A stretch of 27,718 bases of DNA from a virus: positions 1 to 27,718 of the IMG/VR virus record IMGVR_UViG_3300029922_001722; one strand, written 5' to 3'. Below the pieces are notes generated by a model that saw only the letters and a list, made by a program, of their open reading frames with translations, was not told the DNA's origin and did not search any database. Shown one piece after another: positions 6,508 to 14,569 of the stretch. The position numbers and the translations under genes are program-made. Positions within the stretch are counted from its first letter, which is position 1, and the number at the start of each line of letters is the position of its first letter.

Positions 6508-7254
6508 ATGACCAAGCCCAGACCCAAAACCGGAGAGCAGCGGGTGACGCATCAGCCGCTCAAGATCGATCTGCTGCCGCAGAGCGCGCGGGATGCGATC
6601 GAGACCCTTTACGACTGGGGTCGCACCTGGATGGAGATTGCGGAGCAGTCCGCGCGGCCGTACAGCGATAAGTGGAAAGAGGACGGCGGCAGTTTCATCG
6701 ACTGGGAGTCGCTGGACCTGAAGGTGCTGGAGCAGTTTCCGGAGATGAAGCTGGCCAAGAGCAGCCTGCACCGCTGGTTCGATCTGCGCGTGAGCCAGGC
6801 GCGGAAGCAGGTGCTGGCGGAGAGCGCCCAGGCGCGCGAGTTCGCGGGAGCTTTTGCCGGCCGGGATCTGGCAGGCGCCAATAATGCCGTGGTCAATGCG
6901 TTGCGCGACCAGGTCTTCAACCTGATCCAGAGCGCGGGCATCGGCGACAAGGCGCAGTTTGCCAAAGGCCTGAAGGATCTGACCCTGGCCATGAGCCGGA
7001 TGCAGCGCGTGGAGCTGCAGGCCAAACGCGTAGACGCGGACCTGGCCAGGATCGATGCCGAGCGCGCCAAGCTGGCGGCCGAGGCCGGCGATCCGCGCGA
7101 GATTTACCTGCTGGCCTCGCAGGACCTGCTGAAGAAACTGCGCACCCGTGAGCTGGTGCGCGCTGTCATCGATCCCATCAAGGAAGAACTGATTCAGGAG
7201 TTCACGCATGGCGCTGAGGCCTTCTCAAAACAAATCGAAGCGTCAACAGCGTGA
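6508..7254 (+). CDS. Small terminase subunit, DUF3486 / Mu gp27-like
   Basis: The N-terminal region has the Mu gp27 pattern: KIDLLPQSARDAIETL, a helix-turn-helix-like stretch, then KLAKSSLHRWFDLRV (the SKSSLHRY-type motif). The rest is long helical coiled coil (QRVELQAKRVDADLARIDAERAKLAAE). At 248 aa it is somewhat longer than the usual family member because of an acidic insertion (KEDGGSFIDWESLDLKVLEQF, about residues 56-76). It should recognise phage DNA and recruit the large terminase. The gene overlaps the large terminase by 47 nt, an unusually long overlap, and follows gp25/26-like genes as in Mu. Confidence 0.8.
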   Translation: MTKPRPKTGEQRVTHQPLKIDLLPQSARDAIETLYDWGRTWMEIAEQSARPYSDKWKEDGGSFIDWESLDLKVLEQFPEMKLAKSSLHRWFDLRVSQARKQVLAESAQAREFAGAFAGRDLAGANNAVVNALRDQVFNLIQSAGIGDKAQFAKGLKDLTLAMSRMQRVELQAKRVDADLARIDAERAKLAAEAGDPREIYLLASQDLLKKLRTRELVRAVIDPIKEELIQEFTHGAEAFSKQIEASTA

Positions 7255-8824
7255 GGACGCGGCCGCCCAGCTCCGCGCAGTCTTTGGCGTGGTGCCCGGC
7301 GAGCTTAAGCCGGCGCGGAAAGATGCAAGCCAGGTACTGGACCAGGCGTGGGAGCTGGCCACAGACATCACCACGTTTGCCCAAAAGTACATGCGCCACT
7401 TCATGGTGGACCAGCAGACGGGCGCGGTCATCTCTCCGGCCGAGTTCCACCGCGAACTCTACCAGATCCTCCTGACGGAGCAGTTGGCCGCGATCGCCGC
7501 TCCCCGCGAACACGCCAAATCCACCTGCGTATCGGTGATCTTCGTTCTCTACTGCATTTGCTACAAGCTGCGCAAATTCATCGTGCTCATCAGCGATACA
7601 CAGCCCCAGGCCGCGCTGCAGCTCGCGGCCGTGAAAGAGGAGATGGAGTCGAACGCCGAGCTGCGGGCCGACTTCGGCAACCTGGTGGGCGACAAGAAGT
7701 GGGATGTGAACGACTGCCGGACGACGACGGGCGTCACCCTGGCCGCGCGCGGCGCCGGGCAGAGCCTGCGCGGGTTGCGCTTCCGGCTGTACCGGCCGGA
7801 CCTGGTCATCTGCGACGACATGGAAAACGAAGAGGATGTGGATAACCCCGAGACCCGCGAAAAGCTGGAGCGCTGGTTTGTGGGCACCGTCCTCAACCTG
7901 GGCAAGAAGTGCCAGGTCTTCGTGATCGGCACCATCCTGCACTACGACGGCCTGCTGGCCAAGCTGCTGGATCCGGAGAAATTCAAGAAGTTCATCAAAC
8001 GGCGCTACGAGGCGGTTGACCAGGAGTGGCGTCCGGAGACGGTGCTTTGGCCGGCGAAGTGGGACATCGAGAGCCTGCATGAGAAGGAAGAAGTTATCGG
8101 CTCGGTGATGTTTAATCAGGAGTTCCGCAACCTGCCCATCTCTGAATCGACACAGGTCTTCAAGGAAGAGTGGATCACGCGCCACGCCTTCCGCCGCGAG
8201 GAGCTGGTTGGGAAGGCGACGGTCAAGATCAGCTATAACGACCCGGCCATCAGCCAGAAGTCTACGGCTGACTTCTTTGCCAGCGTCACCATCGACATTG
8301 ACGCCCAGGGTTTTATCTATGTGACGCGGGCCGAGCAGGACCGGATGCCCTTCACCAAACAGGTGGAGTTCATCCTGCGCCGCGCCGACGAAGAACAGCC
8401 GATGGTGATCGGCATCGAGGACCAGGCGTACCAGACGGCGCTGAAGCAGGCAATCGAGGATGCGTCGCGCACGAGCGGCCGCTATCTGAATGTCGTCGGC
8501 GTGCCTCACCTGACTGATAAGTTTCTACGCATCTCCACCATGAGCCCGCTGGTGGAGAACGGCACCCTCCGCTTATGCCTGGACGGAACACAGAAGACGC
8601 TGATTTCGCAGCTCCTGTTCCTGGGCAAGATCAAGGACGATTTGGCCGACGCGCTGGAAGGCGCTGTGGAGTTGGCCAGGCGTTTCAACTTTCAGGCCGC
8701 AATCGCCAGCAGCAACGTGCAGGTGGGCGGACGTGAACAGACTTTTGGCCGCGAGGACGTGCTGGCCGGCAACCGCGGCGGCGGAGACTTTGTGCGCCGC
8801 GACAGGAGATCCAGATGGGCTTGA
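7208..8824 (+). CDS. Terminase large subunit (Mu gp28-type)
   Basis: The 538-aa packaging motor has a Walker A-like loop PREHAKST (residues 99-106), Walker B LVICDDME (199-206), a coupling motif GTILHYD (241-247), and a C-terminal RNase H-fold nuclease with acidic residues at SYNDPA (Asp345), GIEDQAY (Glu404/Asp405) and KDDLADAL (Asp477-481). It should translocate DNA into the prohead and cut it; Mu-type enzymes cut in flanking host DNA. CAGGAG lies 7 nt before ATG 7208. It overlaps the small terminase upstream and the portal downstream by 10 nt. Length and motif order are normal; no truncation. Confidence 0.93.
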   Translation: MALRPSQNKSKRQQREDAAAQLRAVFGVVPGELKPARKDASQVLDQAWELATDITTFAQKYMRHFMVDQQTGAVISPAEFHRELYQILLTEQLAAIAAPREHAKSTCVSVIFVLYCICYKLRKFIVLISDTQPQAALQLAAVKEEMESNAELRADFGNLVGDKKWDVNDCRTTTGVTLAARGAGQSLRGLRFRLYRPDLVICDDMENEEDVDNPETREKLERWFVGTVLNLGKKCQVFVIGTILHYDGLLAKLLDPEKFKKFIKRRYEAVDQEWRPETVLWPAKWDIESLHEKEEVIGSVMFNQEFRNLPISESTQVFKEEWITRHAFRREELVGKATVKISYNDPAISQKSTADFFASVTIDIDAQGFIYVTRAEQDRMPFTKQVEFILRRADEEQPMVIGIEDQAYQTALKQAIEDASRTSGRYLNVVGVPHLTDKFLRISTMSPLVENGTLRLCLDGTQKTLISQLLFLGKIKDDLADALEGAVELARRFNFQAAIASSNVQVGGREQTFGREDVLAGNRGGGDFVRRDRRSRWA

Positions 8825-10551
8825 TTCCGGGACGAATTAAATCGCTCTTCACGCGCAGGCCTACCTCGGAGCGCAACAGCCTCACCATGCTCAACCTTGA
8901 CGAGGCGCATCGCTGGGACGCGGCGCGCACGGATGCGGACGAGACCGCCGTGCGCCAGGCCATCGCGAAAACCGGCATGACCAATGTGGCGGAGAGCGAT
9001 ATTCCCATGCTGACCGCAGCGTTCAAGATGCTCGGGACGGGCAAGCTCTCAGAAGATCAGCGACTAGCGGCCGAGGCCGTTGCGCCGCAACTATTCACCT
9101 TGACAACGGGTGACGGCGAAGACCCAGGCTTCCGGCGCATTACGTCGCTGGCCACCCTCCGCGATCTGAATCCGCTGATGCATGACCGCATGTTGCAGGT
9201 TTGCTACTTCCTCGCGGTCACGACTCCCTTCGGAAAGCGGATCGTGGAGATCCTCACCGATTACACCCTGGGCAAAGGGGTGCGCGTCACTGCCAAGGAT
9301 CCACGCGTGCAGGAGGTAATAGACGACTTTTGGAACGACGAAATAAACGACATGGACGCCAACTGCGAGGCCTGGTCAGACGAGAAGACAATCTTCGGCG
9401 AGTTGTGTATTCCTGTGGCCGTTAATCCTGTCAGTGGCAAAGTGCGCCTGGGCTATATCGACCCCATGAACATTGACACCGTCCAGTTTGCCGAGATGGC
9501 TACGGCAGACGGAACGGCCAGCATTAACGTGCCCTATGCGGTAAGGCTGCGGCGCGAGGTGGGCGAGATCCTGCAGAAGCCGATGCTGATCGTCAGGCGC
9601 ATCGACGATCCGAACGATGAAAACTACGGCCGCTTGAATGGGGAGTGCTTCTACTGGACTCTTAACAAGGTCAAGTCCGCCAGCCGTGGATTCAGTGAAC
9701 TGTTTGCCCTGGCAGACTGGATAGATCTCTTCGACCAGATGATCTTCGACTTCGGCGACAAGGTCCGCTTTCTGAACTCGTTTGTGTGGCACTACACGCT
9801 CCAGGGCGCCGACGGCAAGAAGGTTGCCGATTTTAAAGACAAGCTCACCAAGGATCCGCCGAAGCAGGGCGGTGTCCAGGTGACCAACGAGCAAGTGAAG
9901 ATTGAGGCACAGACGCCGGACTTCAAAGGCCAGGACATGGCCGGCGGCAGCTCCATGGTCAAGAAGTACGGCCTCGGCGGCGCGGGCATTCCTCCAACCC
10001 TGATGGGCGATGGCGACGACGCGAACCGGGCCTCGGCGCTGGAGATGAACGCGCCTTTCACGAAGAAAATTCAGAAGCGGCAGAATTTGCTCTCGCGCTG
10101 CATCAAGGCTGTTCTGAACTTCGTGCTCGATTGCGCGCAGCGCGCCGGCGTGCTTCCGGAAAACATCGACCTCAGCTTCACGATCGAGTTCCCGGAGATT
10201 GCCGTTAAGGATCTCGAAAAAGGCGCGCAAACTTTGGTGGGTGCCGCTACAGCTCTGCAGACAGGGCAGGATCAAGGATGGGTCACCACACAGACGGCGG
10301 CCCGCGCCTTTCACACGTTGCTCTCGGAGATCGGCGTGCAGATCGACGACAGCCAAGAAGAATACCAGGCAGCGCAAGCCGAGAAGGCGGACCGCGCTGC
10401 AAAGGCTCAGGATCTGTTCTTTCCGCAGTCGGCCCTGGGCGCGGCCTTGAAGGCGTTGAAGACGCCGGCGCCGAACGCGGCCGAGGAAGCCGGCAAAGGT
10501 CCAGATGACGATCTGCTGGATGCGGACGAAGCAAGGACGAGGGTGAACTGA
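8815..10551 (+). CDS. Portal protein
   Basis: 578 residues directly after the large terminase. The middle shows portal features: VTTPFGKRIVEILTDYTLGKG, FGELCIPVAVNPVSGKVRLGYIDPMNID, a long helix region around FDQMIFDFGDKVRF, GGAGIPPTLMGDGDDANRASALEMNAPFTKKI (residues about 390-420) and a helical C-terminal tail ending acidic. It should form the twelve-fold ring at the capsid vertex through which DNA passes. GGAG sits 7-8 nt before the ATG, and the start overlaps the terminase stop. The stop overlaps the next start (TGATG). Exact portal subfamily is uncertain; position and length are decisive. Confidence 0.9.
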   Translation: MGLIPGRIKSLFTRRPTSERNSLTMLNLDEAHRWDAARTDADETAVRQAIAKTGMTNVAESDIPMLTAAFKMLGTGKLSEDQRLAAEAVAPQLFTLTTGDGEDPGFRRITSLATLRDLNPLMHDRMLQVCYFLAVTTPFGKRIVEILTDYTLGKGVRVTAKDPRVQEVIDDFWNDEINDMDANCEAWSDEKTIFGELCIPVAVNPVSGKVRLGYIDPMNIDTVQFAEMATADGTASINVPYAVRLRREVGEILQKPMLIVRRIDDPNDENYGRLNGECFYWTLNKVKSASRGFSELFALADWIDLFDQMIFDFGDKVRFLNSFVWHYTLQGADGKKVADFKDKLTKDPPKQGGVQVTNEQVKIEAQTPDFKGQDMAGGSSMVKKYGLGGAGIPPTLMGDGDDANRASALEMNAPFTKKIQKRQNLLSRCIKAVLNFVLDCAQRAGVLPENIDLSFTIEFPEIAVKDLEKGAQTLVGAATALQTGQDQGWVTTQTAARAFHTLLSEIGVQIDDSQEEYQAAQAEKADRAAKAQDLFFPQSALGAALKALKTPAPNAAEEAGKGPDDDLLDADEARTRVN

Positions 10552-10756: not shown

Positions 10757-11659
10757 ATGGCTGACTCCCGCGCACAGGCTTACGCTCAGCAGCTCGACTT
10801 GCTCACGAAGCAGGCGGAGGCGCTCACGCCAGAGGCGCGGCTGCGCATCCTGAAGCTGCTGGACCAGGCCAACCGCGAGATCCTGGTCGACGTGGCGCGC
10901 AGCCAGCCGTCGAGCTATAACGCCGCCCGGCTGCAGGCACTGAAGGCGCAGATCGATCGCGTGATGGCGGAGTTTGCCAGCCAGGCCGGCAGTCAGGTCA
11001 GCGAACTGGAGCAGAAAGCTTTTCTGCAGACAGCCGCGCAGATTGACGCCACGGTGGCGGCGGGCACAGGCACGCTGATGGTGCAGCCGGTTGTGGACCG
11101 CGCCCTGTTGCAGGTTGTGCAAGGCTATACGGCTGACCTCATCTCGGGACTCTCGCGCGACGCGAGCGCGAAGATCAACGCAGCGGTCCAGCGCGCAGCA
11201 TTGGGTGGGCTCAATCTGGAGCAGCTCGTCGCGCAAATAGGTTCGACGCTTGAAGGGGGAACCTTTAGCGGATTGTTCAGCCAGGTGGGCGAGCGGTCTA
11301 TGTCAATAGCCCTTAACGAAATCAGGCGCCTGCAGTCGGTGGTTTCCATGGCCCGGATAAATGATCTGGCCCCTCATCATCCTGGCTTAGGTAAAGGATG
11401 GCGGCATATTCCAGTGGCAAGAGTGCCGCGCATTTCCCATATTCTCGCCAATGGCCAAGTACGCAAGCCTGACGAGCCCTTTCTTGTGGGCGGCGAAGAG
11501 CTGCAATTTCCGCGCGACCCCAACGGTTCGGCGGAAAACACAATCGGTTGTTCTTGTCTTCTCTACCCGGCGCTCAGTGCCGATCAACTGAAACCCACCG
11601 ACCAGGAGCGCGACTTACTCAAGAGCTACGGGCTCTCGGTCTCAACCAAAGCAGCGTGA
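10757..11659 (+). CDS. Head morphogenesis protein, Mu gpF / SPP1 gp7-like
   Basis: The first 200 residues are helical and coiled-coil-like (QLDLLTKQAEALTPEARLRIL, long Gln/Ala stretches). The gpF core is at about 215-270: GWRHIPVARVPRISHILANG, then FLVGGEELQFPRDPNGSAEN and GCSCLLYP, the usual RxxH followed by a Cys-x-Cys end. The last 23 residues (LKPTDQERDLLKSYGLSVSTK) are shared with the gpF-like protein at 1481-2209. Following the portal is the normal place for this gene. The family is a minor head protein at the portal that may be ejected with DNA. Complete length, 300 aa. Confidence 0.88.
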   Translation: MADSRAQAYAQQLDLLTKQAEALTPEARLRILKLLDQANREILVDVARSQPSSYNAARLQALKAQIDRVMAEFASQAGSQVSELEQKAFLQTAAQIDATVAAGTGTLMVQPVVDRALLQVVQGYTADLISGLSRDASAKINAAVQRAALGGLNLEQLVAQIGSTLEGGTFSGLFSQVGERSMSIALNEIRRLQSVVSMARINDLAPHHPGLGKGWRHIPVARVPRISHILANGQVRKPDEPFLVGGEELQFPRDPNGSAENTIGCSCLLYPALSADQLKPTDQERDLLKSYGLSVSTKAA

Positions 11660-11669
11660 GGTACTTTCC

Positions 11670-12068
11670 ATGGGCAACACTTCGATCGCAACAGCCAACC
11701 TGAGTACGGCTTCGGCCGTCACCACGCCCCCTGCGCCAGCGCACCTGCCCGCAGAGGCCAAACAGCAGTGGATCGACACGTACAACAAGGCGTTCGCGCA
11801 AGCCCAGAACGACTATCCAGGGAATGCCCGCGCACAGCGCACAGCGGCGCAGAAGGCCGCGAACGCGCTGCTCGCCGTGACCGCGCCGAAGTCGGCCGCG
11901 GACATTGACGCGCTGCCGGCCTGGCAGGTGCTGCTCCGCTCCACGCGCACCGTGGGCGATGTACAGACCCGCTTATGCGTGACTGCGGACGGCCACAAGT
12001 ACAGCTTCCCCGTTGAGTCCGCGCCGCCCGATCCTCCGGCGAAGGACACCAAGAAGACGACGAAGTAG
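11670..12068 (+). CDS. ChaB-like domain protein (132 aa)
   Basis: After a Ser/Thr/Ala-rich N-terminus, residues about 25-68 (LPAEAKQQWIDTYNKAFAQA, then NARAQRTAAQKAANALL) match the ChaB family pattern of LP..a...w...fN.a followed by an Ala-rich helix. A second small domain (ALPAWQVLLRSTRTVGDVQT) and a Lys-rich tail follow. ChaB-like proteins occur in phages, but their role there is unclear. Here it sits 10 nt after the gpF-like gene and before the capsid gene, suggesting a minor virion or assembly part. Confidence 0.65.
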   Translation: MGNTSIATANLSTASAVTTPPAPAHLPAEAKQQWIDTYNKAFAQAQNDYPGNARAQRTAAQKAANALLAVTAPKSAADIDALPAWQVLLRSTRTVGDVQTRLCVTADGHKYSFPVESAPPDPPAKDTKKTTK

Positions 12069-12131: not shown

Positions 12132-12145
12132 AAAATGAGGCTGAA

Positions 12146-14569
12146 ATGAAGCAACCTATTCGATTCATGCTTACAGCGGAAGCGGACGGCGCCGAGCTTT
12201 CGCTCGACGAGCAGCAGTCCCGGCTCAATGAGGCTCTGCGCGAGCAGTTCGGCCTGGGCATGGACGGATGCTCGCGCTTCTATCTTTGCGATACCTTCAA
12301 CGATTACATCATCGCGCGCGGTCCGGAAGCGAAGCTCTACCGCATCCCGTACACCATGAAGGGTGACGAGGTGGACTTCGGCGACGCCCAGGAAGTGACC
12401 ACGGCATATGTGCCGGTGGCTGAGGCCTGCGAGTTTATCGCGGCAGAGGGCGACGCGCAGCCGCAGTCAGGCAAATACAAGATTGGCGCGCTCAAGGCCG
12501 GTTGGGGCAACGGCGCCATCAACGGCACATCTGCGCCTCACTACTATCCGCCGGCGTTTGTGGCGATTGTTGCCGAGGCGCTGAACGGCAAGCCTTTCGG
12601 ACGCCGGCATCCCGATCAGCGCGGTCCCGATCCAACGGGCGCCACCGATCCGGACCGTATTGCCGGCTGGCTTGAGGGCGGAGCCTTTGACGGCCAGCGC
12701 GCGATCGCGACGGTCAACCTCTTCACAGCCGAGGCTGCGCTCCGCTCCAGGCTGGACGAGGCGCGGGAGAAGCGCACGATCAACAACTTTGCCGTCTCCA
12801 TGCTGGCATCTGTGGGCTACAAGCCTGGCGTGGTCGAAGGCAAACAGTGCCTGGTGGCGGAGGATCTCGGAACGCTGTACTCCGTGGATCTCTGCGCACG
12901 GGCCGGAGCCGGCGGCGAGTTTTTGACCGCCGCGAGCTTTGCGGCCAACGATATTTCAGCGGCGCAACTACGCGCCGTCAACGCAGCAACCACCGCGATT
13001 GTTCCCAATCGCCCCAACCGCGGCGGCGCTGCCAGCGCTACCGAAGGAGCATTTCCAATGAAGAAGTCCATTCTTCGACTGCTCGAAGCGCTTCGGCAGA
13101 AGAATGCGTCGCGCTGCGCCGAGCTGAGCCTGCAATTTGCCAATACCGCGGAGGCCGATTATCCGGTCTTCATGGAAACAGTGACCACCGCCTTGACCGA
13201 AGCGCCAGACGCCGCGGCCGCAGCCGCAGTGGTAACCGCTGAAGCCGCCACCGCACAGCTTGCCGAGGCTCACAAGATCCAGAGCCGCAACCGCATTGAG
13301 ACCTCGCTTGTCGCATCCAAGCTGCCCAAGCCGGCGCAGGATCTGGCGCGGACTCACCTGGAGTCCGCCCTGGTCGCCGAGGCTGACCTGAAGCAGGAGA
13401 AAATCGACGCGGAGATCACCAGCGTGCGCGCCGCGTTCGCCGCATTCAACACCGTTGGCCGTATCCATCCGGCGGTGAATGTTGCGCTGGACAGCGCCGA
13501 CAAGCTGGCCCTGGCCATGGAAGCGGCCGTGGGCGTCAAGGCGTCGATGACCCAAGGCGTCCCGGCATTCCGCGGGCTGCGCGAGGCCTACCAGACGATC
13601 ACCGGCGACTGGAACCTTGACCGGCTCCGCGGCGGCGGCGGCGGGTTCACCGGCCATGTGCTGGCGTCGGAAGCCGTGCTGACCGGCGACTTCCCCAACA
13701 TCCTGCTCAACAGCATGACCAAGCGGCTGCTGCAGGACTGGGCGGAGCTGGCGCTCGACGGCCTGTCGAACCTGTACACGAAGGCATCCATCAGCGATTA
13801 CAAACTGCAGGATCGCGTGCGTGAAGGATACTTCGGCGAACTGCCGATCGTGAACGAAGGCGCGCCGGGATATACGGAGATTGCTCCGCCTACCGACGAG
13901 CTGGTGACCTACCAGGTACAGAAGCGCGGCAACCTGCTCTCGATCTCCGAGGAGACGATCCGCAACGACGACCTGGGCGCGATCGCACGCTTCCCCGGCC
14001 GCCTGGCGCGGGCCGGCCGCTGGACGCTGAAGAACTACATCACGTCGTTCTTCGCCAACAACCCGAACTACACCGGAGACTCTGTGGCCTGGTTCAACGC
14101 CGGGCATTACAACCTGGGCGCCGTGGCTCTCACGCAGGACGCTCTGATCACGGCCGAGGTTGCGCTGTTGACCCAGACCGAGAAGGACTCCTGTGAACCG
14201 CTGGGGCTTCCGCTCGACTGGCTCATGGTGCCCCCGGCGCTGGCCGCCACCGCGCGCCAGATCAACCAGACCAACACCGCCGGGTCGAACGCATTCTTCC
14301 AGCGTTTCGGCGTGAACAACGAGCGCATCTACGTCAACGAGAAACTGACCGACGCCAACGACTGGTATTACGGGACGAAGCAGGAAAACGCTCCGTTCCT
14401 TGAGATCGGTTTCCTCGACGGCATCGAGAACCCGCAGATCTTCCTGGCCAACCAGCCGACGATCGGCACCCAGTTCACGATGGATGAGCTGCAGTACAAG
14501 GTCAAGATGGTGTTCAACGGCGCCATCATCGACTTCCGCGGCGTGGGCAAGAACGTCGTAGCCGGCTAG
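12146..14569 (+). CDS. Prohead protease-scaffold-major capsid fusion protein (807 aa)
   Basis: Three parts in one frame. Residues 1-300 are a prohead-protease-like domain: GKYKIGALKAGWGNGAING, a likely catalytic His155 (FGRRHPD), a likely Ser218 or Ser222 (NNFAVSMLASVG) and SVDLCARAGAGGEF. Residues 305-470 are Ala/Glu-rich and helical, typical of scaffold. Residues about 470-807 are an HK97-fold capsid subunit (VPAFRGLREAYQTITGDW, QVQKRGNLLSISEETI and onward). Protease-capsid fusions are known in other phages. An excellent SD (GAAGGAG, 8-nt spacer) precedes in-frame Met305, so a 503-aa scaffold-capsid form may also be made. A strong hairpin lies just 5' and another just 3' of the gene. Confidence 0.9.
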   Translation: MKQPIRFMLTAEADGAELSLDEQQSRLNEALREQFGLGMDGCSRFYLCDTFNDYIIARGPEAKLYRIPYTMKGDEVDFGDAQEVTTAYVPVAEACEFIAAEGDAQPQSGKYKIGALKAGWGNGAINGTSAPHYYPPAFVAIVAEALNGKPFGRRHPDQRGPDPTGATDPDRIAGWLEGGAFDGQRAIATVNLFTAEAALRSRLDEAREKRTINNFAVSMLASVGYKPGVVEGKQCLVAEDLGTLYSVDLCARAGAGGEFLTAASFAANDISAAQLRAVNAATTAIVPNRPNRGGAASATEGAFPMKKSILRLLEALRQKNASRCAELSLQFANTAEADYPVFMETVTTALTEAPDAAAAAAVVTAEAATAQLAEAHKIQSRNRIETSLVASKLPKPAQDLARTHLESALVAEADLKQEKIDAEITSVRAAFAAFNTVGRIHPAVNVALDSADKLALAMEAAVGVKASMTQGVPAFRGLREAYQTITGDWNLDRLRGGGGGFTGHVLASEAVLTGDFPNILLNSMTKRLLQDWAELALDGLSNLYTKASISDYKLQDRVREGYFGELPIVNEGAPGYTEIAPPTDELVTYQVQKRGNLLSISEETIRNDDLGAIARFPGRLARAGRWTLKNYITSFFANNPNYTGDSVAWFNAGHYNLGAVALTQDALITAEVALLTQTEKDSCEPLGLPLDWLMVPPALAATARQINQTNTAGSNAFFQRFGVNNERIYVNEKLTDANDWYYGTKQENAPFLEIGFLDGIENPQIFLANQPTIGTQFTMDELQYKVKMVFNGAIIDFRGVGKNVVAG
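13044..13060 (+). promoter_or_regulatory. Internal SD and start codon inside the capsid fusion gene
   Basis: AAGGAG (13044-13049), an 8-nt spacer and ATG 13058-13060 are in frame with the 807-aa protein at Met305, exactly at the protease-scaffold boundary. This would make a nested scaffold-capsid product without protease. The site is as good as the SDs of independent genes here. Confidence 0.65.

Follow-up and report, generated by a model that had tools for sequence, protein, structure and literature searches.

A conserved internal ATG and Shine-Dalgarno sequence predict a nested scaffold-capsid gene within a viral protease-scaffold-capsid fusion

In phage lambda C/Nu3, an in-frame start inside the protease gene yields protease-free scaffold in excess. 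The lambda capsid protein E is encoded by a separate gene, and C is a protease of another type than that of the fusion gene described here. Nested in-frame scaffold starts led by a Shine-Dalgarno (SD) sequence have also been described within the protease genes of phage Mu (I/Z) and the Mu-like siphophage PaMx73 (gene 27) (PMC4378225), and in these phages the major head protein has a gene of its own, unlike in the fusion. Pseudomonas phage MD8 and its relatives carry a tripartite protease-scaffold-capsid gene (PMC8508860); the terms 'internal' and 'start codon' are absent from the text of that paper. Gp5 of MD8 and F10 shares with the fusion gene the three-part order in one ORF and the capsid Pfam family, but its protease is of the ClpP/S14 type, whereas the N-terminal domain of the fusion gene has no S14 Pfam match. 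Protease-capsid fusions are also known from Paracoccus phages (PMC6536676) and, as cited in the same paper, from Lactococcus phage c2. Gp8 of Stenotrophomonas phage S1, a major head and protease protein, is likewise a protease-capsid fusion with an ATG and SD at the junction, but its N-terminal domain is weakly Peptidase_S78-like and not gp21-like by the searches made. Such fusion products are currently annotated as one long 'protease' or 'hypothetical' protein. One-gene fusions pose a dose problem, since with a protease on every shell subunit the prohead would be crowded and digestion might begin too early. The nested start in tripartite fusions, and its recurrence with gp21-like, ClpP-type (F10) and S78-like (S1) proteases, are apparently new; no report of a nested start within a tripartite fusion was found in searches confined to the open literature.

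The window analysed here is the whole of a 27.7 kb stretch (27,718 nucleotides) of IMG/VR virus record IMGVR_UViG_3300029922_001722, in which the fusion gene follows the other genes of a head module of standard type (Table 1). Just before the fusion lies a small gene that matches ChaB below threshold (E 3e-4), which is odd for a head module. Matches to Phage_capsid_4 on the source contig are confined to the fusion gene, and the number of capsid-family matches is exactly one per contig in 12/12 records (the source and 11 related phage contigs of 37–45 kb). The original prediction was that Met305 carries a near-ideal SD at the domain boundary, so that an 807-aa fusion and a 503-aa form would be produced. 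The ORF bears out both lengths, and every coordinate proved right. Met305 lies in a disordered linker between protease and scaffold and follows a GAAGGAG sequence with an 8-nt spacer. The anti-SD duplex energy is −8.0 kcal/mol at Met305 vs. −5.6 at the annotated start.

Table 1. Coordinates of the head genes, predicted domains and translation signals in the window.
Feature	Position	Strand	Remarks
Large terminase gene	7208-8824		
Portal gene	8815-10551		
Mu-F-like head gene	10757-11659		
Small gene directly upstream of fusion gene	11670-12068		
GAGG, weaker SD of full-length start ATG 12146	12137..12140	+	duplex −5.6 kcal/mol
Full-length protease-scaffold-capsid fusion	12146..14569	+	open frame, 807 aa
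Prohead-protease-like domain (predicted), ~residues 20-290	12203..13015	+	AF2 model, Foldseek
His155 codon, candidate catalytic residue	12608..12610	+	invariant in 38 sequences
Ser218 codon, candidate nucleophile	12797..12799	+	invariant in 38 sequences
Asp248 codon, candidate third catalytic residue	12887..12889	+	invariant in 38 sequences
Internal SD GAAGGAG	13043..13049	+	spacer to ATG 8 nt
Internal start ATG (candidate), codon 305 (Met305)	13058..13060	+	in-frame junction ATG in 49/49 distinct homologues
Nested scaffold-capsid gene (predicted)	13058..14569	+	503 aa, predicted major product
Predicted scaffold (delta-like) domain, residues 305-509	13058..13672	+	mostly helical in AF2 model
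Conserved Ser-Glu-Ala 508-510, candidate maturation cleavage site after Glu509	13667..13675	+	preceded by Gly-rich linker; capsid domain begins
HK97-fold major capsid domain, residues 510-807	13673..14566	+	Pfam PF25209, Foldseek

The AlphaFold model of residues 1–304 has a mean pLDDT of 83 and is confident to about residue 290, with residues 294–304 disordered. With this model, the top solved match in Foldseek is T4 gp21 (5JBL; E 4.5e-4, probability 1.00), with a TM score of only 0.29/0.48. Among the viral structures of BFVD, 58 match the N-terminal domain with E ≤ 0.001, many of them named prohead protease. Neither the N-terminal domain nor its profile has a match among Pfam and PDB sequences, so the protease assignment rests on the fold search and on links between PHROG families. 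The fusion family corresponds to phrog_29592, whose function is listed as unknown; 8/38 of its members have weak matches to phrog_15531, a head maturation protease family, and the member in Microcystis phage Mae-JY22 matches phrog_15531 at 5.6e-11. Single-sequence hhalign against T4 gp21 gave no useful alignment and the A2 profile a weak one, and only the broad A5 profile was collinear. In this weak-scoring alignment (hhalign E 0.0067, probability 5.7%), His155 and Asp248 are paired with His85 and Asp168 of gp21, and Ser218 is placed in the GVSS motif, within one residue of Ser140. The fold matches support the prediction of a prohead-protease-like domain with a gp21-type fold, and the PHROG links agree with it. 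T4 gp21 is the closest solved fold to this domain, but its sequence kinship is marginal and, unlike the fusion, it is encoded by a stand-alone gene. T4 gene 21 itself (L260, 2015–2587) is annotated with a second translation start within the gene that yields a shorter product.

The model of residues 305–807 is of moderate confidence (mean pLDDT 71). It opens with a helix at model residues 2–15, and its first ~180 residues (fusion residues 305–487) are mostly helices, as expected for a scaffold or delta domain. Residues 510–800 match Phage_capsid_4 (PF25209) with an E value of 5e-33, and Foldseek retrieved HK97 and other HK97-fold capsids with E values down to 5e-7. Fold and profile searches therefore support the earlier reading of the gene as protease, scaffold and capsid domains. 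At the scaffold/capsid border, (S/T)EA is near-invariant, and Glu509 is kept in 96% of 48 sequences. Related proteases of giant phages cleave after A/S/G/T-X-Glu (PMC5694885), which makes residues 508–510 a plausible maturation site with a cut after Glu509. Motifs resembling [IL]xE cleavage sites are only modestly enriched in the scaffold region and were set aside as proof. A capsid of this family in a prophage-like locus on an Acidobacteria MAG contig (L256, 3812–5074) matches from residue 444 only, has no protease and looks truncated or rearranged.

A profile scan retrieved 80 viral loci with relatives of the fusion, and removal of near-duplicates left 49 sequences spanning the junction. Their pairwise identity ranges from 38 to 88%, with 19 clusters below 70% and 8 clusters below 60%; because the homologues share kinship, the 49 cases are not 49 independent events. 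An in-frame ATG with an upstream SD is present at the protease/scaffold junction in 49/49 distinct homologues, and the original proposal, which was to fall if relatives lacked the SD, thus withstands this comparison. The mean anti-SD energy at the junction is −8.35 kcal/mol, whereas 656 further in-frame ATGs in these genes average −2.85; in one homologue (L051) the SD at the junction is weak (−5.4). In sequence pairs of 60–95% identity, codons at identical amino acids differ in 15% of cases over codons 300–306 vs. 42% gene-wide, so that few other stretches of seven codons in the gene show as little synonymous change, and the GGA codon 301 within the SD shows 0 synonymous changes in 343 comparisons. 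Across the family the SD is always present, with varying spacer length and in any of the three codon phases; the linker between protease and scaffold varies in both length and peptide. In 35/45 homologues the internal SD pairs more strongly than that of any upstream candidate start; in the other 10/45, an upstream candidate is equal or stronger. In several loci (L030, L033, L040, L075 and others) the frame stays open for ~100 codons upstream of the Met1 position and offers more start candidates; some members of the family therefore have a different or uncertain full-length start. Of two scans of genome contigs, the first gave no relatives and the second a distant Acidobacteria MAG locus (L257), which also has the internal junction ATG and SD, as do Microcystis phage Mae-JY22 and Nostoc phage Nsp-JY21. 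PHROG 29592, the family of the fusion gene, includes Mae-JY22 and the Acidobacteria MAG locus and is annotated only as unknown or hypothetical; the present results suggest a function for it. All members examined (the source gene, L094 and L257) are protease-scaffold-capsid fusions.

These data bear on the possibility that only the full-length fusion is translated and that cleavage in the linker yields the scaffold-capsid form, the SD-like sequence being incidental. Prohead proteases do cut themselves and their substrates, and a conserved [ILV]xE(A/S) motif lies just past the junction, at residues 312–315. Cleavage, however, leaves without explanation both an invariant ATG with a synonymously constrained SD in all these homologues and the recurrence of the element in two fusion families whose proteases are of other types. 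It would also put a protease domain on each capsid subunit, leaving the prohead nearly full. We consider this explanation improbable.

A hypothesis-blind scan was performed in which the fraction of sequences with an ATG and an SD within 6 columns was recorded for each alignment column. In the fusion gene, the junction reached 98% and the next best column 29%. Each of five neighbouring genes from these phages had its top column at its own true start (49–84%); the best internal column reached 60% in one of them (mean energy −4.8) and 16–33% in the others. The internal start is thus at least as conserved as the true starts of the neighbours. The ATG and SD might instead be an unused relic of two formerly separate genes fused through loss of a stop codon, as many phages have separate protease and scaffold-capsid genes, and L098 and L089 are examples of related capsids that are not fused. 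A relic would be expected to decay over the divergence seen among the homologues, yet this element is conserved beyond the real starts of the neighbouring genes, which makes an unused relic very improbable. Protease, scaffold and capsid form a single open frame in every relative examined, where the contig covers it, and none of the relatives' loci examined carries the gene divided at Met305 into two ORFs.

When codons were redrawn synonymously according to family codon usage, the mean junction energy was −6.47 ± 0.32 kcal/mol, and the real value was reached in 0/400 redraws (z about −5.8). This supports retention of the SD at the nucleotide level beyond the encoded peptide. A Glu-Gly-Ala linker peptide is found in many members, and its conservation could be the source of part of the constraint. 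That Met and Glu-Gly-Ala are kept solely for the protein, e.g., as a recognition sequence, with the SD a by-product of their codons, would fit the Gly-Ala encoded by SD codons in 33/49 members, but elsewhere in the family the SD coincides with other dipeptides and other codon phases, and the real codons pair with the anti-SD almost 6 standard deviations more strongly than redrawn ones, a synonymous null that largely refutes this least probable of the explanations.

Judged by these comparisons, the internal ATG and SD are under strong selection, and the tripartite head gene very probably has two in-frame translation starts, which would yield many protease-free capsid chains and a few with protease. 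Ribosomes starting at 12146 would produce the 807-aa protease-scaffold-capsid protein, and those starting independently at 13058, with its stronger SD, would produce the 503-aa scaffold-capsid protein in excess. Since the capsid domain is common to both products, they are expected to co-assemble, and the minority of full-length chains would supply the prohead with protease in a controlled proportion. After closure of the shell, the protease would digest the scaffold and remove itself, the probable cut being after Glu509. Initiation at 13058, the ratio of the two products, their co-assembly and the site of cleavage are all inferred from the fusion and its relatives, and the ratio does not follow from SD strength alone. 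The comparison with lambda C/Nu3 made in the original prediction is apt as an analogy, the common feature being a nested in-frame start at the protease/scaffold boundary, but it does not extend to the capsid, which in lambda is separate and here belongs to both products, the nested one being the predicted capsid precursor.

The packing of the prohead was estimated for a T=7 shell with an interior radius of 18–22 nm, both assumed. Under these assumptions, 415 full-length chains would fill 63–115% of the interior, which makes one protease per subunit implausible, whereas scaffold-capsid chains with one tenth full-length would fill 29–53%. In T4, about 55–100 copies of the protease compare with 960 shell proteins (PMC9958956, PMC5694885). 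A conserved nested start would be a simple answer to the protease dose, and it predicts the true capsid precursor.

The junction was also examined in protease-capsid fusions with other N-terminal domains. This domain has a CLP_protease Pfam match in F10 and mEp213 and is weakly Peptidase_S78-like in S1 and Bordetella phage PBb001. Among F10-type fusions, an ATG with an SD-like sequence is present at the protease/scaffold border in 15/15 distinct genes, with a mean energy of −6.7 against a null of −5.0 ± 0.6. Other columns of this family reach 47–80% for ATG and SD in the blind scan because protease residues are conserved, so the F10 family alone is weaker evidence. Among 44 S1-type (S78-like) genes, the border column reaches 82% vs. 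30% in the next column, and the border energy of −6.9 lies about 6 standard deviations beyond the synonymous null (−4.6 ± 0.4). We think it reasonably likely that a nested border start is a general rule of single-gene fusions, across at least three protease types, that the real major-capsid precursor is the product of an unannotated internal gene, and that the ratio of protease to capsid is governed by how strong the two starts on a single message are relative to each other. The fusion records of F10, mEp213, S1, Nsp-JY21 and PBb001 (L095, L096, L097, L099 and L100) each contain an unannotated ATG and SD at the border.
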